Shown here: positions 3,024 to 13,974 of the stretch, piece by piece | Position numbering within the stretch: the first letter of the stretch is position 1 | How the letters are laid out: every line of letters starts with the position of its first letter | Assembly (NCBI RefSeq): GCF_001308875.1 | Contig: NZ_KQ465111.1 | Span: 62,001 to 126,000, forward strand | Source: Lysinibacillus sp. ZYM-1 | Lineage (GTDB): Bacteria > Bacillota > Bacilli > Bacillales_A > Planococcaceae | DNA length: 64,000 nt | Reading direction: 5' to 3' | Notes under the pieces: generated by a model | The model's input: the letters and a program-made list of their open reading frames with translations, nothing else | Databases searched by the model: none | What the model was told of the DNA's origin: nothing | Position numbers and translations under genes: made by a program

Positions 3024-3656
3024 ATGACATTTAATCAAAAGATTACCTCACTACATTTAGATGTATTAAAAGAAATTGGAAACATAGGTGCTGCGCATGC
3101 CGCGACAGCACTTTCCAATTTACTTGGGAAAAAAATTGATATGCGTGTTCCAAAGGTAGAAATGGTATCCTTTAACGATATGATGGAATTGGCTGGCGGA
3201 TCAGAAAACGTGGTCGTTGGTATTTACCTTCGCATTGAAGGTGATGCAGAAGGAAGTATGTTCTTTATACTACCGATTGAACAAGCAAACCGTTTTATCC
3301 GTCGTCTTATTTACGATGAAACATTTGATTTTAAAAAGCGACCTGTTTCAGAGCTAGGATTATCAGCCATGCAAGAAATGGGGAATATTTTATCAGGTTC
3401 CTATTTATCTGCCTTATCGGACTTTACCAATTTGAAAATTTATCCGACTGTGCCTGGGCTAAGTGTGGATATGTTTGGTGCAATTATTAGTATTGGTTTA
3501 ATAGAATTATCACATGTGAGTGATAATGTTATTGTCATAAATACATCCATTTTTGAAGAAGGTGTAGAAGACCATGAAACTGTGAGAGGTCATTTCTTCC
3601 TACTACCAGATCCCGACTCATTTGATGCTATTTTTAAAGCATTAGGGGTTTCCTAA
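3024..3656 (+). CDS. cheC: CheY-P phosphatase CheC
   Basis: This 210-residue protein of the CheC/CheX/FliY phosphatase family dephosphorylates CheY-P and, in Bacillus, binds CheD. Both family active-site signatures (D/S-x3-E-x2-N) are present: D-VLK-E-IG-N near residue 15 and S-AMQ-E-MG-N near residue 115, so both half-sites look functional. The stop codon overlaps the cheD start by one base (TAATG), suggesting translational coupling. The presence of cheC and cheD together marks the Bacillus-type adaptation system, which E. coli lacks. Confidence 0.95.
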   Translation: MTFNQKITSLHLDVLKEIGNIGAAHAATALSNLLGKKIDMRVPKVEMVSFNDMMELAGGSENVVVGIYLRIEGDAEGSMFFILPIEQANRFIRRLIYDETFDFKKRPVSELGLSAMQEMGNILSGSYLSALSDFTNLKIYPTVPGLSVDMFGAIISIGLIELSHVSDNVIVINTSIFEEGVEDHETVRGHFFLLPDPDSFDAIFKALGVS

Positions 3657-4162
3657 TGATACTAAGCAGTAGTAGTGGGCAAGTGATTAAAGTGGGAATT
3701 GCACAAATGGATGTAGTAAAGCTACCTAACACAATTCGAACTTCTGGTCTGGGTTCTTGTGTTGGCGTTATTTTATATGATGAGTCAAAAAAAATTGCTG
3801 GTTTAATCCATGTGATGCTACCAGATTCAAGCTTAGGGAGATCTGAGTCGATCAATGTGGCAAAATTTGCAGATACGGGAATAGCAGCAATGATTGATCT
3901 ATTGAAATTAGAGGGCGTTCAAAAATTTAAATTAAAGGCGAAAATTGCTGGGGGCGCACAGATGTTTCAATTTACTTCAGATAAAGATTCGATGCGCATC
4001 GGTCCTCGTAATGTAGAAGCTGTCAAAAATGAATTGAAAAGACATGGAATTCCTTTAGTAGCCGAGGATACTGGTGGAAATAGTGGTAGAACGATTGAAT
4101 TTAATCCTGCCACATCGTTATTACATATTCGAACAGTTAACCAAGGAGTGAGCGAAATCTAA
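3656..4162 (+). CDS. cheD: Chemoreceptor glutamine deamidase CheD
   Basis: CheD converts receptor glutamines to glutamates and forms a feedback pair with CheC. The 168-residue protein shows the expected Thr-Cys-His triad: Thr29 and Cys35 in T-x5-C (TSGLGSC) and His52 in GLIHVMLPDS. The six- and seventeen-residue spacings match those I recall for Thermotoga CheD. The gene overlaps cheC by one base and the following membrane-protein gene by one base (TAATG at 4160-4164). It is the last recognisable chemotaxis gene here; in B. subtilis sigD would follow. Confidence 0.96.
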   Translation: MILSSSSGQVIKVGIAQMDVVKLPNTIRTSGLGSCVGVILYDESKKIAGLIHVMLPDSSLGRSESINVAKFADTGIAAMIDLLKLEGVQKFKLKAKIAGGAQMFQFTSDKDSMRIGPRNVEAVKNELKRHGIPLVAEDTGGNSGRTIEFNPATSLLHIRTVNQGVSEI

Positions 4163-4533
4163 TGTTTGGTTCCATATTTTATAACCTATGGGGAGCATTA
4201 ATGGCCTTTACTATTTATTTTTTTAGTACATTTCAAAAGCCTTATACGCCCCTACGAATCATTATCGGATCTTTTGTTACTGCAATCATCGTATTCTTTG
4301 TGATGTATATCGTACGTTTATTAATTGCTTACATTTTATATACGCCTGAGGTGGATGAGGAAGCAGTTGAAGATGAAATAGTAGAAAATGAACAAAGTGC
4401 TCCTGAAGGAACGAATCAAGAAGGAACAACGGCTAATTCAACTGTTGAATTTCAAGATGAGAACTCAGAGGAAATTGCACAAGTAGTCCGAACGATGATG
4501 AATAGAGAAGAAGAACAACAAGTGAATGCTTAA
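4162..4533 (+). CDS. Small hypothetical membrane protein after cheD
   Basis: The product has 123 residues. Two hydrophobic segments are visible, at about 5-20 (LWGALMAFTIYFFS) and 29-57 (IIIGSFVTAIIVFFVMYIVR), followed by a strongly acidic, polar C-terminal tail (EEAVEDEIVENEQ onward). I do not recognise a named family. The start overlaps the cheD stop by one base, so it is translationally coupled to the chemotaxis operon and probably has a motility-related or envelope role; that role is inference from context only. An intrinsic terminator follows directly. Confidence 0.75.
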   Translation: MFGSIFYNLWGALMAFTIYFFSTFQKPYTPLRIIIGSFVTAIIVFFVMYIVRLLIAYILYTPEVDEEAVEDEIVENEQSAPEGTNQEGTTANSTVEFQDENSEEIAQVVRTMMNREEEQQVNA

Positions 4534-4539
4534 AACAGG

Positions 4540-4566
4540 GAGTCGCCATGAGCGGCTCTTTTTTAT
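4540..4566 (+). terminator. Intrinsic terminator ending the chemotaxis operon
   Basis: A 7-bp stem (4540-4546 with 4552-4558, one G-U pair, loop CATGA) is followed by a run of T from 4557 to 4564. It lies 7 bases after the stop of the small membrane-protein gene. Its position implies that at least part of the fla/che transcript ends here and does not reach sigD, 7.7 kb downstream. Confidence 0.8.
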
Positions 4567-4817
4567 TTGGTCATTTCGGGAATCTTATTATATGAAAAAC
4601 TTAAGTAAAATTTATTTTTTTTATATTATTCATATAGAAGTCTTCGTGTTAGCATATTTGTACAAAGGAAAAAGCTATTATTCAGAAAACTACAAATCAC
4701 TGAAATACTTGTGTGGTCCATAACGAATGGCTTGTCCTAGAAGTCCATAAGAAGAAAAGGGTGAAAAGGTAAAAGAAGGGCTTACATGTGCAAAATAGTC
4801 TCATATGAGGAATGGTG
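4567..4817. other. AT-rich gap before the amidohydrolase cassette
   Basis: About 250 bases between the che terminator and the first, broken cassette gene. It contains an AT-rich stretch (4590-4640) and no confident promoter. A 65-codon open frame crosses the terminator and this region, but it has no recognisable protein features or ribosome site, so I do not call it a gene. I see no insertion-sequence ends or obvious direct repeats. Confidence 0.5.
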
Positions 4818-6028
4818 ATGAAGCAAGAGTATTGGTTAATGAATGTGCTTCTTGAAAAGAGCTATGATCACATTGTCGGAACAAAAACAGTGCTTTGTCA
4901 TCTTTTCATTAAAGAGGGGATCATAGCTAAAATCATATCAGCAGATCAACCATTCTATACCAGTATCACTACAATTGACGGAAAAGTGAAATTACTTATG
5001 CCGAGTTTTCTTGAAAAACATGTTCATCTGGATAAAACATTCATGGGTAATCCTTGGGTTGCTATAAATCAGGAAGAATTGATTGTTGACCAATGTGCAT
5101 TGGAACAGCATATTTTAACAACATTAGAGATGACTACTGAAAAACGGGCAATGCTTTTATTGGATAAATTATTATTGAATGGTTCTACACATATTCGAAC
5201 ACATGTAGATATATATCCTGAAATTGGACTTGAGAAAGTGATAGGGATTTTGCAAGCATTCAATAATTTCTCTGGGAAACTCTCTGGTGAAATGGTTGCA
5301 TTCCCACAGCATGTCCATTTAAGAACAAAATCAAAGAAATTGGTGAGGGAAGCCTTACACCTTGGAACAGAAATAGTCGGTGGTGTTGATCCAGCGACGA
5401 TTGATGGCAATATTGAAGAATCACTATTCCAGATGATGGATTTAGCCGTAGAGGCGAATGCAAGTGTAGATATCATCTCCATGATAGAGACTATTTAGGT
5501 ATCTATACCATGAAACGGTTGGCAGCATTCACAATTGATGCTGGCTAGCAAGGGCGTGTAAACATTAGTCATGCTTTTGCATGAGGGGAAATTCCATTAG
5601 ATGAAGCGGAAGAAGTAGCAGATATTTTAGCAGAAGCGGGCATTTCGATTACCACTGCTGTCCAATATAATATTGCCATGCCACCAGTTCCATTGTGAAA
5701 GAGAAAATGGGTAAAAGTCGCGGTGGGTAGCGATAATATCTATGATGCTTGGAGACCTTTTGGTAATGGTGATTTGCTTGAGCGAGTGGGGCGTTTGGCC
5801 AATCGATTTCATTTAACAGATGAATATGCTTTAGATCAATCATTAGATTTTATTACGAAGGGGATAACGTTGTTAGATAGTGAAGGTAAAAGAAAGTGGC
5901 CCCTGCTAGGTCATGAAGACAACATGGTATTAGTGGATGCCAGCTGTGCTGCAGAAGCCATTGCTCGACGGGCTCAACGAATTGCAGTCTTCTTTCAAGG
6001 AAATATTGTGGCAGGAACCTTAGATTAA
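4818..6028 (+). pseudogene. Decayed amidohydrolase (cytosine deaminase-like), cassette copy 1
   Basis: This is a degraded fourth copy of the amidohydrolase repeated downstream. The intact start is ATG 4818 behind GAGG at 4807-4810, beginning MKQEYWLMNVLLE like its paralogues. The metal-binding motif HVHLDKT and the RTHVDIYPE and GGVDPATIDG segments are present. One base is missing near 5472 (between the Asp codon and CAT CTC CAT GAT), shifting the frame. The shifted frame then carries three stops: TAG 5546-5548 (a Trp codon in the paralogues), TGA 5582-5584 and TGA 5696-5698. The remainder (GSDNIYDAW onward) is open to the normal C-terminus at 6028. Four independent lesions make a sequencing error unlikely; the copy appears genuinely inactive. 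Confidence 0.9.
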
Positions 6029-6271
6029 GTATTTGAATAAAATACAGAATTTTCTGGTAATCAGACGACTATACTATCTTTCTATCAAAGGTTTGGCAGC
6101 AAGAAGAACCATTTAGTTTCTAGTTTTTATATTCACTTGTTTTTGAGTATTAGAGAAACGTTTGAGAGGTTCAGCTATACATCACTCTATGTGCCAATCG
6201 ATAGATTTTTACTCAAATGATTTTAATTCAACTTAGAAAAGCTTAGCGAGCAAAGGGGAGAAAGTGGAGTT
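6029..6271. other. Gap between pseudogene and transporter
   Basis: About 240 AT-rich bases. A promoter for the transporter and the deaminase/hydrolase genes could lie here (TATACT-like hexamers occur near 6070 and 6175), but none has a convincing -35 at the right spacing, so I do not call one. No terminator, repeat or small gene is evident. Confidence 0.4.
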
Positions 6272-7681
6272 ATGACGACAGTACAGTCCAATGACCTTCA
6301 AAATAAAAAAAAGAAAAAAAGAGATATAAATGTTTTTGTTCTGATTTTATCTATGCTAGTAATTGCAACGATCATTACCTATATTGTACCGACTGGTGAA
6401 TATACACGATCAGAGGTGGATGGCAGAAGTGTCGTGGTACCAGATACGTATCATGCGATTGAATCGTCACCAATTAGTTTGATGGGCCTCATTTCGTCTA
6501 TTCATACAGGTATGGTTGATTCAGCTCCTATCATCTTTTTTGTCTTAATTATTGGTGGAACACTAGGGGTATTATCAGCAACTGGGGCGGTTGAGGCATT
6601 GATTGCCACAGCCTCACGGAAATTTGCTAAAAAAGAAAAATGGTTGATTCCAATTATTATGCTGTTTTTTGCACTCGCAGGAACACTCATTGGCATGGCT
6701 GAGGAAACACTGGCTTATATTGGTATTTTAGTGCCAATTGCCATTGCACTAGGTTTTGATGCCATTACAGGAGCAGCTATTGTATTGGTCGGTGCATCTG
6801 TAGGATTTATGACAGCAGTTTTGAATCCATTTACAGTCGGAATTGCACAAGGGATTGCACAATTACCACCTTTTTCAGGAATTGGTTACCGTATTGTATT
6901 GTTTATAATTACGTATTTGATTTCTGTTTGGTACATTCAACGCTATGCGTTAAAAGTAAAACGAGATCCTGCTAAAGGTTTTTTTCCAGAAGGAAAGTAT
7001 GGCAAATTAGAAGATACAGGTAATGTCCAATTGAGCACTACGCACAAGATTGTGCTAGGATGTTTCCTAGTAAACTTTATTGTGTTAATCATCGGTGTTA
7101 TTAAGTTCAGTTGGTATATTACTGAGATTGCTGGGATTTTTACATTGCTTGCAATCGTCATTGCTTTTGCGGGAAAACTTTCTGCTAACCAAGCAGTAAA
7201 TGCATTTATACAAGGTTCAGGTGGCATTCTTTCAGGGGCGTTAATCATCGGTGTAGCTAGAGCGATTGTTGTGGTGTTAACAGATGGCCATGTTATTGAT
7301 ACATTATTATTCCATGCCTCGTCCTTAATCCACCATTTCCCACCTGTACTAAGCGCTGCGGGCATGTACATTTTACAGTTTATCCTTCACTTTTTTGTAC
7401 CTTCTGGTAGTGGACAAGCAGCCTTAACAATGCCAATTATGGCACCACTGGCTGATCTTGTGGGGGTAACGCGTCAGACAGCTGTGCTTAGCTTCTCGAT
7501 GGGGGATGCCATTGGGAATATTATCTTCCCAACCAATGGACCACTCATGGCGGCACTTGCCTTAGCGGGTATTCCATGGGTACGTTGGTTGAAATGGATT
7601 TGGCCACTGGTTGCCATTCAAATCATCATAGGTTTAACTGCCGTCATCGTTGCGCATTTTATCAATTATGGTCCGTTTTAA
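6272..7681 (+). CDS. YfcC-family (DcuC/ArcD superfamily) membrane transporter
   Basis: The 469-residue protein has a Lys-rich cytoplasmic N-terminus (KKKKKR) and about 12 hydrophobic segments. Family hallmarks visible are IVPTGEYTR after the first membrane span, GMAEETLAYIGILVPI, GFMTAVLNPFTVGIAQGIAQLPPFSGI, FVPSGSGQAALTMPIMAPLADL and FPTNGPLMAALALAGI. These are the paired hairpin loops of the C4-dicarboxylate/amino-acid uptake superfamily that contains YfcC. Known members move dicarboxylates, basic amino acids or peptides; the substrate here is unknown. Its place directly before a deaminase and three amidohydrolases suggests that it imports their substrate or a related nitrogen compound. That substrate link is inference. 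Confidence 0.88.
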   Translation: MTTVQSNDLQNKKKKKRDINVFVLILSMLVIATIITYIVPTGEYTRSEVDGRSVVVPDTYHAIESSPISLMGLISSIHTGMVDSAPIIFFVLIIGGTLGVLSATGAVEALIATASRKFAKKEKWLIPIIMLFFALAGTLIGMAEETLAYIGILVPIAIALGFDAITGAAIVLVGASVGFMTAVLNPFTVGIAQGIAQLPPFSGIGYRIVLFIITYLISVWYIQRYALKVKRDPAKGFFPEGKYGKLEDTGNVQLSTTHKIVLGCFLVNFIVLIIGVIKFSWYITEIAGIFTLLAIVIAFAGKLSANQAVNAFIQGSGGILSGALIIGVARAIVVVLTDGHVIDTLLFHASSLIHHFPPVLSAAGMYILQFILHFFVPSGSGQAALTMPIMAPLADLVGVTRQTAVLSFSMGDAIGNIIFPTNGPLMAALALAGIPWVRWLKWIWPLVAIQIIIGLTAVIVAHFINYGPF

Positions 7682-7720
7682 ATCAATATACACCCGCAAT
7701 TTTTTAGGAGGGAATAGGAT

Positions 7721-8119
7721 ATGAAACAGCATGATTTTATGAGAAAAGCGCTTGATTTAGCTAATGAAAATGCTATTTCACAACACGGGGCACCATTTGG
7801 AGCCCTTGTGGTTAAAAATGGGCAAATTATTGGTTCTGGTGTTAATGAGGTTGCTATAACTAACGATTTGACGAATCACGCGGAGATTCAAGCTATTCGT
7901 CAAGCTTGCCATACTTTGCAAACAACTAGTCTAGAAGGCTGTGAGATGTATGCAAGTACAGAACCGTGTTCCATGTGTTTAAGTGCAATCTATTATTCAA
8001 AAATATCAACAGTTTATTATTTTCATGCTAGTAATCCTAGCCAAGATTATGTCTATCACCAACTGTCTTTACCACATCAAGATAGGGATATTCAGATGGT
8101 ACAACTTGAAGAAAAATAA
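7721..8119 (+). CDS. Zinc-dependent nucleoside/nucleobase deaminase (CDA superfamily)
   Basis: The 132-residue protein has both zinc-site motifs of the cytidine/guanine deaminase fold: HAE at 53-55 (His ligand plus catalytic Glu) and PC-SM-C at 82-86 (two Cys ligands). APFGALVVKNGQIIGSG, TNDLTNHAEIQAIR and EPCSMCLSAIYYSKI resemble Bacillus GuaD, but the protein is some 25 residues shorter and lacks most of the C-terminal tail GuaD uses over the active site. It may therefore act on a different heterocycle. A strong ribosome site (AGGAGG) precedes the ATG. It is followed 14 bases later by an amidohydrolase gene, so the two are probably co-translated. Confidence 0.87.
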   Translation: MKQHDFMRKALDLANENAISQHGAPFGALVVKNGQIIGSGVNEVAITNDLTNHAEIQAIRQACHTLQTTSLEGCEMYASTEPCSMCLSAIYYSKISTVYYFHASNPSQDYVYHQLSLPHQDRDIQMVQLEEK

Positions 8120-8133
8120 AGGAGGTTCAAATA

Positions 8134-9357
8134 ATGGCACCATCGGCATACTGGTTAACAAATGTACGATTAGAAACAGGTTTTCATTACGATCACGATA
8201 CTGTGATAGGAACAGAAACAGAGCTTTTTAATGTACAAATCGAAAACGGAAAAATCAAGCAAATTATAAGTGGGAATCAGCCGTTTGAGACGGATTTACC
8301 TCAACGAAATGCGCAAAGCTATCTAATGCTACCATCTTTTAGAGATATGCATATTCATATTGATAAAACATATTTTGGTGGACCATGGAAGGCACCTACC
8401 ATTCCAACAGAGGGCCTTATAACAAGATTAAAAGAGGAAGAGGTACTCCTCCCTAGTTTATTGCCTGTTGCAGAGGAAAGAGCGAAAAAACTATTAGATC
8501 TACTATTAAGTGCCGGCTCAACACATATTCGTACGCATTGTAATATCGATCCATTTATCGGTTTGAAAAATCTAGAAGCAGTCTTAAAGGCCAAAGAGGC
8601 TTACAAAGAAAAAGCTGTTATAGAGATTGTAGCATTCCCACAACATGGGCTATTACGTAGTGATTCGGTTTCTTTGGTAAGAGAAGCATTGCGTAATGGG
8701 GCTTCTTTAGTTGGAGGTGTTGATCCAGCAACAATCGATGAGAACATTGAGAAATCATTACAAACGGTGATGGAATTAGCGGTGGAAGCAAATGCAAACA
8801 TTGATCTCCATATTCATGATCCTGGTCACCTCGGTATTTTTACTTTTAAGCGATTAGCAGCGTTAACGGAAGAAGCAGGTTGGCAAGGAAGAGTGACAAT
8901 TAGTCATGCGATGGCCCTTGCAGATGTTCCTACTATTGAAGCGAGTGAAGTAGCGGAATTACTAGCACATCTTGGCATAGCTATTACCTCCTCTGTGCCA
9001 ATTGAACACACCATACCTATCCCTCTCTTAGATCATAAAGGGGTAAAAATATCTCTTGGTGATGATAGTATTACCGATCATTGGTCTCCGTTCGGTCAAG
9101 GAGATAGTCTAGAAAAGGCAGGAACGCTCGCCGAACGTTTTGGTTTAAGTGATGAACGTTCACTTGGTCAAAGCCTAAAATATATTACGGGAGGCATTAC
9201 ACCTCTAAACAAGGAAGGTCAACAAATATGGCCGAATGTTGGAGATGAAGCAAATGTTGTTTTTGTTGAAGCAACTTGTTCTGCAGAAGCAGTAGCGAGA
9301 AGAGCGAGAAGGGTTGCAGTGCTCTTTAAAGGCAATATAGTTTCTGGTGAACTTTAA
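8134..9357 (+). CDS. Amidohydrolase, cytosine deaminase-like, cassette copy 2
   Basis: The 407-residue metal-dependent hydrolase resembles bacterial CodA and AtzC. Candidate metal ligands are His73 and His75 (HIHIDK), His226 (DLHIHDPG), His258 (TISHAM) and Asp310 (GDDSITDHW). The position of the CodA catalytic Glu (two residues after the His-x-x of the third ligand) is Asp229 here. This is the most divergent intact copy: RTHCNIDP replaces RTHVD-YP of the other copies, and GDDSITDHW replaces GCDNIFD-W, so its substrate pocket may differ. The start is ATG 8134 behind AAAGGAGG. It follows the deaminase gene closely. The substrate is unknown. Confidence 0.85.
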   Translation: MAPSAYWLTNVRLETGFHYDHDTVIGTETELFNVQIENGKIKQIISGNQPFETDLPQRNAQSYLMLPSFRDMHIHIDKTYFGGPWKAPTIPTEGLITRLKEEEVLLPSLLPVAEERAKKLLDLLLSAGSTHIRTHCNIDPFIGLKNLEAVLKAKEAYKEKAVIEIVAFPQHGLLRSDSVSLVREALRNGASLVGGVDPATIDENIEKSLQTVMELAVEANANIDLHIHDPGHLGIFTFKRLAALTEEAGWQGRVTISHAMALADVPTIEASEVAELLAHLGIAITSSVPIEHTIPIPLLDHKGVKISLGDDSITDHWSPFGQGDSLEKAGTLAERFGLSDERSLGQSLKYITGGITPLNKEGQQIWPNVGDEANVVFVEATCSAEAVARRARRVAVLFKGNIVSGEL

Positions 9358-9384
9358 TATTGAGAAAGAAAGGAACCATTTAAA

Positions 9385-10605
9385 ATGCAAGCTACTTTTT
9401 GGCTAACAAATGTACGACTTGAAACAGGTTATCATTTCGAAAACGGTATGGTTGCACATACCAATACGTCTTGCTCACATCTCTTAATCAAAGATGGAAA
9501 AATTGCAGACATCGTTTCTGCTGAAATTCAATTGAATGATGATTTCCCAAAAAAAGATATGAAGCAACTATTAGCGCTACCTTCTTTCATTGAAAAACAT
9601 TGTCATTTGGATAAAACACTTTTAGGTGATCAATGGCGTGCGGTCACATCTGTTAACAATATTTTCGAACGCCTTGATATTGAAAAAGAGGTACTTCCTA
9701 CTTTACACACCACAACACAACAACGTGCTGAAGAATTACTTGCACGTTATGTACAGTCTGGGGTTACCCATGTTCGAACCCATGTAGATCTGTATCCCGA
9801 GGTAGGTTTAAAAAATTTAGAGGAAGTTCAAAAAGCTTTACGAACTTTTGAAGGCCAGTTGTCATATGAAATCGTAGCCTTTCCACAGCACGGGCTATTG
9901 CGAACAAAGGCAGCAAATATAGTAAGAGAGGCGCTTCGCATGGGCGTAGGCTTTGTAGGTGGTGTTGATCCAGCTACTGTTGACGGGGATATTGAGGCTT
10001 CCTTACAACAAATGGTGGAACTCGCTATAGAGGGGAATGCTGGGATAGATCTGCATTTACATGATCCAGATCAATTAGGTACCTTTACCATGAAAAGATT
10101 AGCTCAATTAACAAAGGAGGCTGGTCTGCAAGGTAAGGTAGCAATAAGCCATGCATTTGGGCTAGGCGATGTTTCACGATCTGAAGCTGAAGAAATGGCT
10201 GACATATTAAGTGATGCAGGAATTACTATTGTGACAAGTGTGCCAATTCGTAGAAAATTTCCTCCAGTTGGATTATTACACAGCAAAGGGGTGCCAGTTG
10301 CAATCGGTTGTGATAATATTTTTGATGTTTGGTCACCATTTGGGAACGGTGATCTTTTAGAAAGAGCGGGCCGTTTAGCTACCAGCTTAGGGTGGAGAGA
10401 TGAGCACTCATTAGCCCAAACCTTACATTTTATTACAGGTGGTAAAACGCCACTTAATCAAGCTGGTGAGCAACAGTGGCCAAAAGTGGGGGATAGTGCA
10501 AATATAGTTTTAGTGGATGCTTCTTGCTCTGCTGAAGCGATTGCTCGCAGATCTCAACGTAAGGTATCCATATTCAATGGCAACGTCGTTTTTAGTTTGA
10601 TTTAA
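9385..10605 (+). CDS. Amidohydrolase, cytosine deaminase-like, cassette copy 3
   Basis: A 406-residue paralogue of the previous gene, 27 bases downstream. Candidate ligands are His72 and His74 (HCHLDK), His224 (DLHLHDPD), His256 (ISHAFG) and Asp310 (GCDNIFDVW). Asp227 again occupies the place of the CodA catalytic Glu. Conserved blocks shared by all copies are FWLTNVRLETGYH at the N-terminus, IVAFPQHGLLRT, GGVDPATVDGDIEASL and the C-terminal SAEAIARRSQRK. The ribosome site is moderate (AAAGGA). A terminator-like hairpin follows, so expression of the last copy may be reduced or separately driven. Predicted cytoplasmic, since no signal peptide is visible. Confidence 0.85.
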   Translation: MQATFWLTNVRLETGYHFENGMVAHTNTSCSHLLIKDGKIADIVSAEIQLNDDFPKKDMKQLLALPSFIEKHCHLDKTLLGDQWRAVTSVNNIFERLDIEKEVLPTLHTTTQQRAEELLARYVQSGVTHVRTHVDLYPEVGLKNLEEVQKALRTFEGQLSYEIVAFPQHGLLRTKAANIVREALRMGVGFVGGVDPATVDGDIEASLQQMVELAIEGNAGIDLHLHDPDQLGTFTMKRLAQLTKEAGLQGKVAISHAFGLGDVSRSEAEEMADILSDAGITIVTSVPIRRKFPPVGLLHSKGVPVAIGCDNIFDVWSPFGNGDLLERAGRLATSLGWRDEHSLAQTLHFITGGKTPLNQAGEQQWPKVGDSANIVLVDASCSAEAIARRSQRKVSIFNGNVVFSLI

Positions 10606-10621
10606 AGCAATATCTTTAAAG

Positions 10622-10665
10622 GGATGGTACTATTTCACTTCAGTAAAATAGCCATCCTATTTTTA
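10622..10665 (+). terminator. Intrinsic terminator between cassette copies 3 and 4
   Basis: A stem of 6 + 6 bp (10622-10627 with 10652-10657, and 10630-10635 with 10646-10651) has a two-base bulge (TA) and a 10-base loop, followed by TATTTTT. It lies 16 bases after copy 3 and 30 bases before the start of copy 4. Confidence 0.75.
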
Positions 10666-10694
10666 GTATTTGAGATGAAAAAGGTGAAGAAATC

Positions 10695-11924
10695 ATGCAA
10701 GAATCTATTTATTGGATCACAAATGTCCTATTAGAAAGTGGCTATCACTATGAGGAAAATATCGCTATAGGGACAAAAACTGAAAAAGTTCATATTTTAA
10801 TTAATCAAGGCATTATTACTGACATTGTTTTAGCTGATACGCCATTGGATAATTTTCTTCCTCAAAAAGATGGGAACAATTTATTAATCTTACCCTCTTT
10901 TTTAGAAAAACATTGTCATTTAGATAAAACGTTAATTGGGGATTCTTGGAGAGCGTGTCGCCAAGTGTCCAATCGGATAGAACGTTGCAACTTTGAAAAA
11001 AATTTATTGCCTACATTAGCAACTTCAACGAAAGAAAGAGCAGAGGCCCTCTTACAGGTATTATTAAATGCTGGTTCAACGCATGTGCGTACGCATGTTG
11101 ATATTTATCCGGAAGCAGGGCTTAGTTATTTAGAAGCTGTGCAACAAGCATTAGCAACCTATGATGGTAAATTATCACATGAGATTGTAGCTTTTCCACA
11201 GCATGGCTTATTGCGTACAAATTCTAAAGATTTAGTGAGAGCGGCTTTACGTGAAGGAGCTAATTTAGTAGGTGGAGTGGACCCAGCTGTAATTGATGGT
11301 GATATTGAGGCATCATTACAGCAAATGATGGACATCGCTGTGGAAGCGGATGTAGGGATTGATTTACATCTACATGATCCAAGTCATCTTGGGATTTTTA
11401 CGATGAGACGATTAGCCGCATTAACAGAAGAAGCAGGCTGGCAAGGAAGGGTAACAATTAGCCATGCATATGGTCTAGGGGAAGTTTCTTTAGCAGAGGC
11501 AGAAGAGGAAGCTGACATGCTAGTAGCCTCAAATATTTCCATCATCACAAGTGTTCCAATTCATGGACCGATGCCACCGATTGATTTATTAACAAGAAAG
11601 GGAGTGCCTGTTGCCATAGGTTGTGATAATATCTTTGATTCATGGTCTCCTTTTGGAAATGGCGATATTATTGAGCGAGCAAGCTGTATGGCAGAGCGAT
11701 ATAATTGGATTGACGAGCAATCATTAGCGCAAACGCTAGGTTTTATTACAAATGGAAAGACACCATTAGATCGAAAAGGGAAACAAGTTTGGCCAAAAAT
11801 AGGTGATGAAGCGAGCATGGTCTTTGTCGAAGCAAGTTGTTCTGCAGAATTAATAGCTAGAAGGTCTAGACGCCGCGCTGTTATGTACAAAGGAAAAGTA
11901 GTAGCAGGTAAACTGAACTCATAA
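10695..11924 (+). CDS. Amidohydrolase, cytosine deaminase-like, cassette copy 4
   Basis: A 409-residue paralogue. Candidate ligands are His73 and His75 (HCHLDK), His225 (DLHLHDPS), His257 (ISHAYG) and Asp311 (GCDNIFDSW), with Asp228 where CodA has its catalytic Glu. It shares more local motifs with copy 3 and the pseudogene than with copy 2. The ATG is preceded by GGTGAAG. Because a terminator stands just upstream, this gene depends on readthrough or a weak local promoter that I could not identify. It is followed by a clear terminator, the end of the cassette. The substrate is unknown. Confidence 0.85.
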   Translation: MQESIYWITNVLLESGYHYEENIAIGTKTEKVHILINQGIITDIVLADTPLDNFLPQKDGNNLLILPSFLEKHCHLDKTLIGDSWRACRQVSNRIERCNFEKNLLPTLATSTKERAEALLQVLLNAGSTHVRTHVDIYPEAGLSYLEAVQQALATYDGKLSHEIVAFPQHGLLRTNSKDLVRAALREGANLVGGVDPAVIDGDIEASLQQMMDIAVEADVGIDLHLHDPSHLGIFTMRRLAALTEEAGWQGRVTISHAYGLGEVSLAEAEEEADMLVASNISIITSVPIHGPMPPIDLLTRKGVPVAIGCDNIFDSWSPFGNGDIIERASCMAERYNWIDEQSLAQTLGFITNGKTPLDRKGKQVWPKIGDEASMVFVEASCSAELIARRSRRRAVMYKGKVVAGKLNS

Positions 11925-11986
11925 CCCTCTAAAAAGAACTAACTAACATTAAAAAATAAAAGCGTAATAATTTAGACATATATTTG

Positions 11987-12030
11987 AACTGTATCCTAGG
12001 TTAATCTATAACAAGGATGCAGTTTTTATT
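11987..12030 (+). terminator. Intrinsic terminator ending the amidohydrolase cassette
   Basis: An 11-bp stem (11987-11997 with 12014-12024, one mismatch) with a 16-base loop leads into a T run at 12023-12029. It separates the cassette from the sigD promoter about 50 bases downstream. Confidence 0.8.
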
Positions 12031-12076
12031 TGTCATTACAAAAATAAAGGAATATCTTAGAGACTAAGAGAAACAA

Positions 12077-12105
12077 ATGAAATTATAGTCGATTCTTGTT
12101 ATAAT
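12077..12105 (+). promoter_or_regulatory. Candidate sigma-A promoter for sigD
   Basis: ATGAAA (12077-12082, 4 of 6 consensus) and a perfect TATAAT (12100-12105) are separated by 17 bases. A TG at 12097-12098 gives an extended -10. The next gene is sigD, with a leader of about 175 bases. In B. subtilis sigD is served mainly by the long fla/che transcript; here terminators at 4540 and 11987 isolate it, so a dedicated promoter is expected. Confidence 0.65.
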
Positions 12106-12286
12106 ATAGGAAAGATGGCAATAGCTTATCGAGTTTTGTACTCCTTTAGCTTACAGCTAGAATAGCTCGAATATGGATTTTTTTACAAATGGCAATGGAG
12201 AAATCCTTATAAAAGGAAAGTTTTATGAGCGCAATTAGTCAGTAGCAAACGGGCGCGTAAAGGCGTTTTTTAGAGAGGTGGATTTC

Positions 12287-13057
12287 ATGACACAACCAAT
12301 TCTTAACGATGAGCAAAAACTGTGGAATCGCTGGATACATGAGCGTGATCCAGATGCTGGTGATTTACTCATAAAAAAATATATTTCTTTAGTATCTTAT
12401 CATGTTCAACGTATTAGTGCGGGATTACCAAAGAGTGTATCGCGAGACGATTTAACGAGCTTAGGTATGATAGGACTTTTTGATGCATTAAATAAATTTG
12501 ATATTAATAGAGATTTAAAATTTGATACATATGCTTCGTTTAGAGTAAGAGGAGCCATTATAGATGGGTTGCGTAAGGAAGACTGGCTACCACGTTCAGC
12601 GAGAGAAAAAGCCAAAAAATTAGATGCTCAGATTGAGCAATTAGAGCAAAAATATATGCGTCATGTTACACCTGAGGAACTTGCGGAGCATATGGAAGTA
12701 CCTGTAGAGGATGTTTATCAGACAGTACAAGAGCATTTTTTTTCCAATGTTCTTTCCATTAATGAACAACAAGACCAAGAAGAGGCTGATGGAAAGTCGT
12801 TTGTGATCCGAGATGATACAACAAAAACACCTGAGCAATCAGTTGTTAAGTCTGAGTTACTGGATGATTTAGCTGAAAATATTCAGAAACTTAATGAAAA
12901 AGAACAATTGGTTCTTAGTTTGTTTTACACGGAGGAACTGACTTTGACTGAAATTGGTGAAATGCTTGAATTATCGACATCACGTATTTCACAAATCCAT
13001 TCCAAAGCGCTTTTAAAGTTACGAAAGTTATTATCTAGTGAAATGATTAATGCGTAA
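12287..13057 (+). CDS. sigD: Flagellar/motility sigma factor SigD
   Basis: This 256-residue sigma-28-type factor directs transcription of late flagellar, chemotaxis-receptor and autolysin genes. Region 2 is visible in DDLTSLGMIGLFDALNKFD and FDTYASFRVRGAIIDGLRKEDWLPRSAR, region 3 in TPEELAEHMEVPVEDV, and region 4 in LNEKEQLVLSLFYTEELTLTEIGEMLELSTSRISQIHSKAL. I choose ATG 12287 rather than the upstream in-frame GTG 12278, because that GTG lies inside the ribosome site AGAGGTGG. Length matches B. subtilis SigD (254). It is separated from cheD by the 7-kb cassette but still followed by a swrB-like gene. Confidence 0.95.
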   Translation: MTQPILNDEQKLWNRWIHERDPDAGDLLIKKYISLVSYHVQRISAGLPKSVSRDDLTSLGMIGLFDALNKFDINRDLKFDTYASFRVRGAIIDGLRKEDWLPRSAREKAKKLDAQIEQLEQKYMRHVTPEELAEHMEVPVEDVYQTVQEHFFSNVLSINEQQDQEEADGKSFVIRDDTTKTPEQSVVKSELLDDLAENIQKLNEKEQLVLSLFYTEELTLTEIGEMLELSTSRISQIHSKALLKLRKLLSSEMINA

Positions 13058-13080
13058 ATATCCTTAAGGGAGAGATTCCA

Positions 13081-13389
13081 ATGAGTTTAAAAGGGATTGA
13101 ATTGCAAATTGCTATTCCCAAAACATTTGAAGCGGGGAAAATGGCTGATCAAGCACAGCAACAAGCGTTAGCTCAACAAGCACATGCAAATGAAGCGTTA
13201 AAAAAAGAAATAGAACGCAAGCAAAAAATTGTGAATACATCAGAAGGTACGGATGAAATAAGTGAGGATGAAGATGCGGGTGGCGAATATTTAACGGGTA
13301 TTTACAAAAAGAAAAAAAAGAAACAGGATCAGCAAGAAAAACAGGCACAACATCCGTTTAAAGGGAATTTCGTGGATTTTAGTGGATAG
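13081..13389 (+). CDS. Small hypothetical protein between sigD and swrB
   Basis: A charged, soluble-looking protein of 102 residues. The N-terminus (LKGIELQIAIPKTFEAGKM) is followed by a Gln/Ala-rich helical stretch at about 20-50, an acidic segment, a Lys-rich run (YKKKKKKQ) and a C-terminal motif HPFKGNFVDFSG. I recognise no catalytic domain. Similar small genes occur in this position in other Bacillaceae as far as I recall. A ribosome site (AAGGGAGA) precedes the ATG. It lies 23 bases after sigD and 9 bases before the swrB-like gene, so it is co-transcribed with motility genes; its function is unknown. Confidence 0.7.
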   Translation: MSLKGIELQIAIPKTFEAGKMADQAQQQALAQQAHANEALKKEIERKQKIVNTSEGTDEISEDEDAGGEYLTGIYKKKKKKQDQQEKQAQHPFKGNFVDFSG

Positions 13390-13398
13390 GAGTTTACA

Positions 13399-13974
13399 AT
13401 GACAACCATACTAATAGCGGTACTATTCTTTTTACAGCTACTTTCATTTTACTTCCTTATTATTTTAAATACGAAGCTTGCAAAATTTAAGGATTTAGAA
13501 AAGAAGCAAGAACGCTTAATGAGTGAAATGGACGATACTATTAGTGTCTATTTAGCAGAAATGAAAGATGAAAATGACCGTCTTATTAAAGAGCTACAAA
13601 ATGTTTCACCGTCAGAGTTAGCAGCGACTAGCGTTCAACAAACTGCAAGTTTTGAGACTCAAAAGGAGCGAGCTTCCTCGCTAGCTGAGGTAGAGGCGAA
13701 AAATGAGAATCCTCTAAGCTTAGATAAAGATGCTCGAATCTATGTACCTAAAACTATTGTGGCCAATGCATATTCTCGTCAACAACAAACAACAACCACA
13801 GTAGTCTCAACACCTTCACCTTTGAAAGTGGAACAAAAGGAACGGGTTAAAGAGCTTACAACGGAGCAACAAGCACTAAGTTTAGCAAAGCAGGGTAAAT
13901 CAGCAGAGGAAATAGCGAAACAGCTGCAAAAGGGAAAAACAGAAATCGAGCTTTTACTGAAATTTCATCACTAA
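13399..13974 (+). CDS. swrB: SwrB-like motility protein (N-terminal membrane anchor)
   Basis: The 191-residue protein has one N-terminal membrane segment at about 4-24 (LIAVLFFLQLLSFYFLIIL), a coiled-coil-like stretch (KLAKFKDLEKKQERLMSEMDD), a low-complexity middle and a short C-terminal helix-turn-helix-like end (SLAKQGKSAEEIAKQLQKGKTEIELLLKF). This layout and the place between sigD and rpsB match B. subtilis SwrB (YlxL), which promotes flagellar export-apparatus maturation and swarming. Sequence conservation in the middle is low, so the name rests largely on layout and position. Confidence 0.75.
   Translation: MTTILIAVLFFLQLLSFYFLIILNTKLAKFKDLEKKQERLMSEMDDTISVYLAEMKDENDRLIKELQNVSPSELAATSVQQTASFETQKERASSLAEVEAKNENPLSLDKDARIYVPKTIVANAYSRQQQTTTTVVSTPSPLKVEQKERVKELTTEQQALSLAKQGKSAEEIAKQLQKGKTEIELLLKFHH

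Follow-up and report, generated by a model that had tools for sequence, protein, structure and literature searches.

What do the amidohydrolase, deaminase and transporter genes lying between the che genes and sigD of Lysinibacillus sp. ZYM-1 do, and do they belong together? We address this question in a window of 64,000 nucleotides (RefSeq assembly GCF_001308875.1, contig NZ_KQ465111.1, positions 62,001 to 126,000 of the forward strand; coordinates below are those of the window). Between cheD (3656-4162) and sigD (about 12278-13057), the list of open reading frames (ORFs) contains a series of genes that all run on the + strand: a broken amidohydrolase (AH) gene, AH0, followed by genes for a transporter, a deaminase of the CDA fold, and three intact amidohydrolases, AH1, AH2 and AH3. 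A first-pass annotation, made from the letters and their ORFs, had described this as an accessory route for uptake and stepwise deamination or hydrolysis of a nitrogen heterocycle or cyclic amide, in which the amidohydrolases resembled CodA. The gene content that it listed is borne out by the ORFs, Pfam and NCBIfam. The idea of a functional unit is supported as well.

Our analysis shows a cassette of an ordinary accessory catabolic kind, built on a conserved enzyme pair of several Bacilli families. With moderate confidence, we read it as a nitrogen-scavenging cassette in which unlike aminohydrolases of the AtzC type, a deaminase and a transporter act on a small heterocycle; a small cyclic substrate containing nitrogen, as proposed in the first-pass annotation, is probable. 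The ratio of nonsynonymous to synonymous substitution rates (dN/dS) is 0.066-0.103 for AH1-3 and the deaminase and 0.037 for the transporter, next to reference values of 0.026 for sigD and 0.044 for cheD, with the four comparisons in which dS exceeds 1 being rough. By this measure purifying selection acts on the intact genes, which are more than a chance assembly. The earlier remark that the combination matches no known pathway also stands: no characterised pathway was found, and excerpts of the open-licence literature returned by our searches contained no match for the cassette. Within that literature we found no paper for the family model PRK06846, none joining Lysinibacillus, amidohydrolase, cytosine deaminase and operon, and none joining amidohydrolase, oligopeptide ABC transporter, cytosine deaminase, operon and Bacillus.

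Amidohydrolases of the cassette

AH1 (8134..9357, +), AH2 (9385..10605, +) and AH3 (10695..11924, +) are AtzC-like, not CodA-like. They score 595.6, 550.5 and 553.5 bits on NCBIfam NF005312 (PRK06846), all above the curated cut-off of 447, and so are members of a family whose model is named just "amidohydrolase", without a specific function; the two pieces of AH0 reach 240.6 and 116.2 bits, under the same cut-off. On the cytosine deaminase model NF006685, by comparison, AH1-3 obtain 97.6, 113.3 and 95.4 bits, far under the cut-off of 483. A sequence search with AH3 places 6nbo closest (E 2.5e-54) along with AtzC, followed by cytosine deaminases, and Foldseek ranks the neighbors of the AlphaFold model of AH2 (pLDDT 94.9) as 6nbo, AtzC, and then cytosine and 5-methylcytosine deaminases. 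AH2 is 26-30% identical to AtzC and 6nbo, and AH3 is 61% identical to AH2.

The active site points in the same direction. For the comparison with AtzC (N-isopropylammelide isopropylaminohydrolase; PDB 4cqb, 2qt3), residue roles were taken from the available portion of PMC4577212, according to which the residues that differ between AtzC and CodA include Asn304/Asp314 and His219/Glu217. The AtzC metal ligands H60, H62, H217 and D303 and the base H249 are all kept in AH1-3. Across 144 aligned rows, the window's three among them, H60, H62, K65, H217 and H249 (AtzC numbering) are invariant, Q160 is present in 140, and H219, D303 and W309 are each present in 141; D303 is Asn in three rows. AH1-3 share the fold of AtzC and 6nbo and, in the comparison with AtzC, the metal ligands, His249, Gln160, His219, Lys65 and Trp309; AH2 and AH3 further share Asn304 with AtzC, whereas AH1 has Ser at this position. 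Further differences from these two enzymes are the low identity of AH2 to them and the occurrence of cassette-type enzymes as unlike tandem pairs. With the cytosine deaminase CodA they have in common the fold, the metal site and the glutamine after strand 3, but its Glu217 is His in all three and its Asp314 is Ser (AH1) or Asn (AH2 and AH3), and the CodA-like label is given up on account of that histidine.

In the portion of a 2025 study that we could draw on (PMC12828455), the glutamine after strand 3 marks a CodA cluster, AtzC included, for which the tested substrates are ring compounds with a C-N-C-O unit, and the products set free by the two clusters that it examined are ammonia, amines or chloride. 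AH1-3 are mononuclear-metal amidohydrolases of the AtzC type, and by analogy we infer that metal-bound hydroxide would attack a ring carbon within a C=N-C=O unit and expel an amine (ammonia or an alkylamine), with the ring of the small heterocycle staying closed after the amine is lost. The ring hydrolysis included in the first-pass annotation is dropped here, as AH1-3 are predicted aminohydrolases and no ring-opening enzyme was recognised in the cassette.

The known role of AtzC lies in xenobiotic degradation, in the breakdown of the herbicide atrazine, and the AtzC type of active site would suit a recent cassette for degradation of xenobiotic s-triazines. We regard such an origin as very improbable, given that AH2 has just 26-30% identity to AtzC and 6nbo and that the family is old and present in many genera.

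The deaminase and the transporter

The deaminase (7721..8119, +) is a short CDA-fold protein of 132 aa, of the guanine-deaminase family but without its C-terminal tail. In GuaD, the guanine deaminase of B. subtilis, this tail helps form the active site. GuaD (1wkq, described in its PDB title as domain-swapped) is the best fit, at 37% identity; the CDA fold and the zinc motif HAE...PCxxC are shared, with H53, E55, C83 and C86 as invariant columns, but the cassette protein stops about 20-24 residues short of the GuaD C-terminus, as it does in 7 of 7 cassettes and in one of two homologues in genome G188. Because the tail is missing, guanine deamination by this protein is doubtful, and we did not accept it as a canonical guanine deaminase. 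An assignment to TadA was likewise not accepted, the score on NF008113 being 72 bits against a cut-off of 150. Within the proposed scheme, the short deaminase would take off a further exocyclic amino group. Named records retrieved with the deaminase query alone place homologues at 78-87% identity in L. fusiformis, L. capsici, L. boronitolerans and L. cavernae.

The resemblance to GuaD bears on a different explanation, nucleobase salvage, in which the amidohydrolases and the deaminase would deaminate scavenged modified or free purines or pyrimidines that the transporter imports. Some neighbors of AH genes in other loci fit this explanation as well: an NCS2 uracil/xanthine transporter (over cut-off) beside LysR-AH genes in loci L222 and L223, xpt-pbuX (over cut-off) beside an AH pair in L126, and an NCS1 allantoin-permease relative in L121, L122, L128 and L153, its profile tested in L122 alone and falling below cut-off there. 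However, AH1-3 have His in place of CodA Glu217, the deaminase lacks the tail kept by its full-length relatives, a second GuaD-like protein, about 150 aa long, is encoded elsewhere in the genome, and Pfam and NCBIfam show no nucleobase-type transporter within the cassette. We consider nucleobase salvage possible but rather unlikely.

The transporter (6272..7681, +) is assigned to the DcuC/YfcC family by Pfam and NCBIfam profiles, with 351.5 bits on Pfam DcuC (cut-off 23.1) and 339.1 bits on the YfcC model NF008611, under the cut-off of 500. In our scheme it would, where present, bring the compound in; the view that it is a fixed part of the system does not hold, with the gene found in three of seven cassettes (G000, G004 and G010). 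Among relatives of YfcC, an amide hydrolase gene adjoins the transporter gene in all 8 fetched loci, encoding seven TIGR01891 amidohydrolases (three checked as Pfam M20) and one beta-aspartyl-peptidase.

This adjacency agrees with a third explanation, in which the substrates are amino-acid-linked heterocycles, such as creatinine-like or arginine-derived imidazolones or histidine derivatives, that would lose an amine or an amino-acid amine by AtzC-type chemistry. Within four genes of an AH gene in the 50 loci described below, we counted OppA-type binding proteins (21), Opp-type permeases (18) and EamA (14), where the OppA family was checked in L074 and fell below cut-offs and permease names were assigned by look. 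In L146, hutU, hutI and a hutG-like gene (the last below cut-off) precede a single AH1-type gene that is a 48% relative of AH1. A single AH1-type gene of L148 likewise comes after homologues of those hut genes, recognised by shared clusters; this adjacency is nevertheless confined to one genus and to that distant relative. The most pointed lead to a substrate was an ErtD-ErtE cluster that adjoins an AH gene in G188, and across 261 genomes of the order ErtD has ErtE-like and IclR-type neighbors in 11 loci (L242-L252), 7 of them with an SSS transporter. Of these 11 loci, in which ErtD is over cut-off, just 1 has an AH gene beside ErtD, the other 10 having none within six ORFs of it, and an ergothioneine/hydantoin-propionate pathway was rejected, which counts against amino-acid-linked substrates; we judge them quite improbable.

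Unlike pairs in other genomes

The preferred reading, a cassette of unlike AtzC-type aminohydrolases, leans on how the family is organized elsewhere. At least 61 of the 261 genomes of the order match NF005312 over cut-off, and at least 7 of 14 control genomes match it (at least one over cut-off), so the family extends beyond this group; in the whole class, at least 47 of 398 genomes have matches to AH2 at E 1e-70 or better. Pair counts refer to 70 examined loci, comprising 50 (11 of the genus and 39 of other genera) and 20 class-wide additions, with enzymes typed by their residue at the CodA D314 position. The 50 loci hold 41 adjacent same-strand pairs: 28 S-G, 9 S-N, 3 N-S and 1 N-N. A 4-base overlap is seen in 20 of the 28 S-G pairs, an approximate figure since ORFs were called mechanically with the longest start. 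Over all 70 loci, S or T is joined with N or G in 49 of 52 tandem runs, compared with a mean of 27.8 and a maximum of 41 mixed runs in 2000 label shuffles, which ignore descent. The window's own run, S-N-N, is outside the 52, and the L212 run is missing from them, as antisense ORFs displaced its AH genes. AH ORFs shorter than 380 aa were excluded from a 103-row alignment and those shorter than 300 aa from the class-wide additions, while tree additions had to be 380-450 aa long and more than 36% identical.

According to their PDB titles, the CodA structures D314G, D314A and D314S carry substitutions at this position. AH1 (Ser-type) and AH2/AH3 (Asn-type) are distinguished by the very residue that governs the specificity of CodA, and as unlike partners they may catalyze two successive steps or form subunits of one complex. 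In the tree, every one of the 11 genomes in the AH1 clade also appears in the AH2 clade, which spans 15. Many S-G pairs adjoin Opp-type ABC genes, a two-component system and EamA, and the window's genome carries such a pair elsewhere, on contig C9 (L074).

Linkage of the cassette genes, which the first-pass annotation had proposed to seek elsewhere, does occur outside the cheD-sigD locus. A deaminase homologue adjoins the AH2 orthologue in G188 and G145 (L139, L141), the G145 protein being of a longer, 155-aa type. A LysR-AH1-AH2 unit is present in other genera, in G413 (L210; 76% and 72% identity) and, joined by an ankyrin-repeat gene, in L117, L127 and L151. The short deaminase (at least 63% identity) was found in 9 of the 261 genomes, namely the seven with cassettes, G188 and G221; in G221 (L271), on a contig of 3.6 kb that has no AH gene, it comes after an ankyrin gene. 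As a separate observation, the ankyrin-repeat gene, lipoprotein-like by look, adjoins amidohydrolases in 9 of the 50 loci (L115, L116, L117, L120, L127, L137, L139, L149 and L151), besides its place next to the short deaminase in L271.

Several observations weigh against this picture. The loci were picked via amidohydrolase matches and are kin by descent, so independent events are far fewer than 49 of 52; because the tree shows a few old lineages, we take the count as a conserved architecture rather than as 49 events, and the deep forks of that tree are weak. The exceptions are four N-S-S triplets of one family, counted among the 49, with Gln160 replaced by His in the middle gene of all four, and three N-N runs, each with one partner whose metal Asp is replaced by Asn. 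An AH2 orthologue occurs without an AH1 orthologue in four genomes, all four having an S-G pair beside or near AH2. Finally, the transporter is absent from 4 of 7 cassettes, and transporter hints conflict between NCS1/NCS2 nucleobase-type loci and Opp-, EamA- and YfcC-type loci.

In L216, L218 and L229, distant partner amidohydrolases in which the metal Asp is Asn adjoin an intact enzyme. This substitution suggests that they are non-catalytic subunits.

A broader proposal is that the pair of S-type and N/G-type enzymes forms an undescribed catabolic module of several Bacilli families and a natural reservoir of AtzC-type chemistry, which would take amines, perhaps those of amino acids, off cyclic acyl-amidines (imidazolone rings that are creatinine-like or derived from arginine), with the two enzymes acting in sequence or as one heteromer. 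We put this forward tentatively, as an unlikely extension.

History of the locus in Lysinibacillus

To place the cassette in its genus, we compared 32 Lysinibacillus genomes, all of which contain cheD and sigD. In 7 of them the two genes lie 4.0-8.9 kb apart, in the other 25 the distance is 0.54-1.08 kb, in line with the claimed accessory nature; the cassette has been inserted behind the che terminator and ahead of the promoter region of sigD in one Lysinibacillus group. A deaminase-AH1-AH2 core is common to all seven cassettes, while AH3 is present in two (G000 and G010). AH0 (4812..6028, +) survives in the window as two open pieces (4812-5498 and 5723-6028) in different frames, with two TGA and one TAG within the second half; G010 has an intact homologue, and G004 a 74-codon remnant. 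Remnants of the AH2 3' end, 71-78% identical, are left in three short-gap genomes (G016, G007 and G008) out of 20 fetched from the 25 cassette-free ones, which also served for the terminator counts below. These remnants indicate that the cassette was formerly wider spread; it is undergoing loss in the genus.

Terminators at 4540 and 11987 had been taken to bound the cassette. A hairpin is indeed present upstream (4537..4561, +; two scans), but it is the intrinsic terminator of the che genes themselves and recurs in 14 of the 20 cassette-free genomes. The downstream candidate, a T-tailed inverted repeat identified by eye (11987..12029, +), has 11 pairs (11987-11997 with 12014-12024), a 16-base loop and then T's; it is listed by neither terminator scan, both of which limit the loop to 8 bases, and a cassette terminator here is plausible. 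It is followed by a conserved block upstream of sigD (12041..12137, +) with a promoter-like site at 12077-12105; part of the block is matched in 20 of 20 cassette-free genomes. Since this terminator and the promoter region of sigD both occur in cassette-free genomes, they would be older than the cassette, which therefore need not disturb sigD expression. A promoter scan over 3500-13500 gave 27 sites versus 33.0 +/- 6.0 in shuffles, with no signal for a cassette promoter.

In the genus, a terminator often parts the che genes from sigD (the same 14 of 20 genomes), in contrast to B. subtilis with its single fla/che operon. The interval from cheD to the terminator also contains a 123-aa ORF (4162-4533), which is conserved in genomes with and without the cassette and has no family match in Pfam or NCBIfam.

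Conclusions

The unlike pair is the interesting part of the cassette. The open-licence papers, as far as their available portions go, yielded no native role for relatives of AtzC. A large family with the AtzC active site, organized in conserved unlike pairs by transporters and regulators, makes the question of that native role testable, and the natural Ser/Asn/Gly variation at the CodA D314 position is a ready panel for work on specificity.

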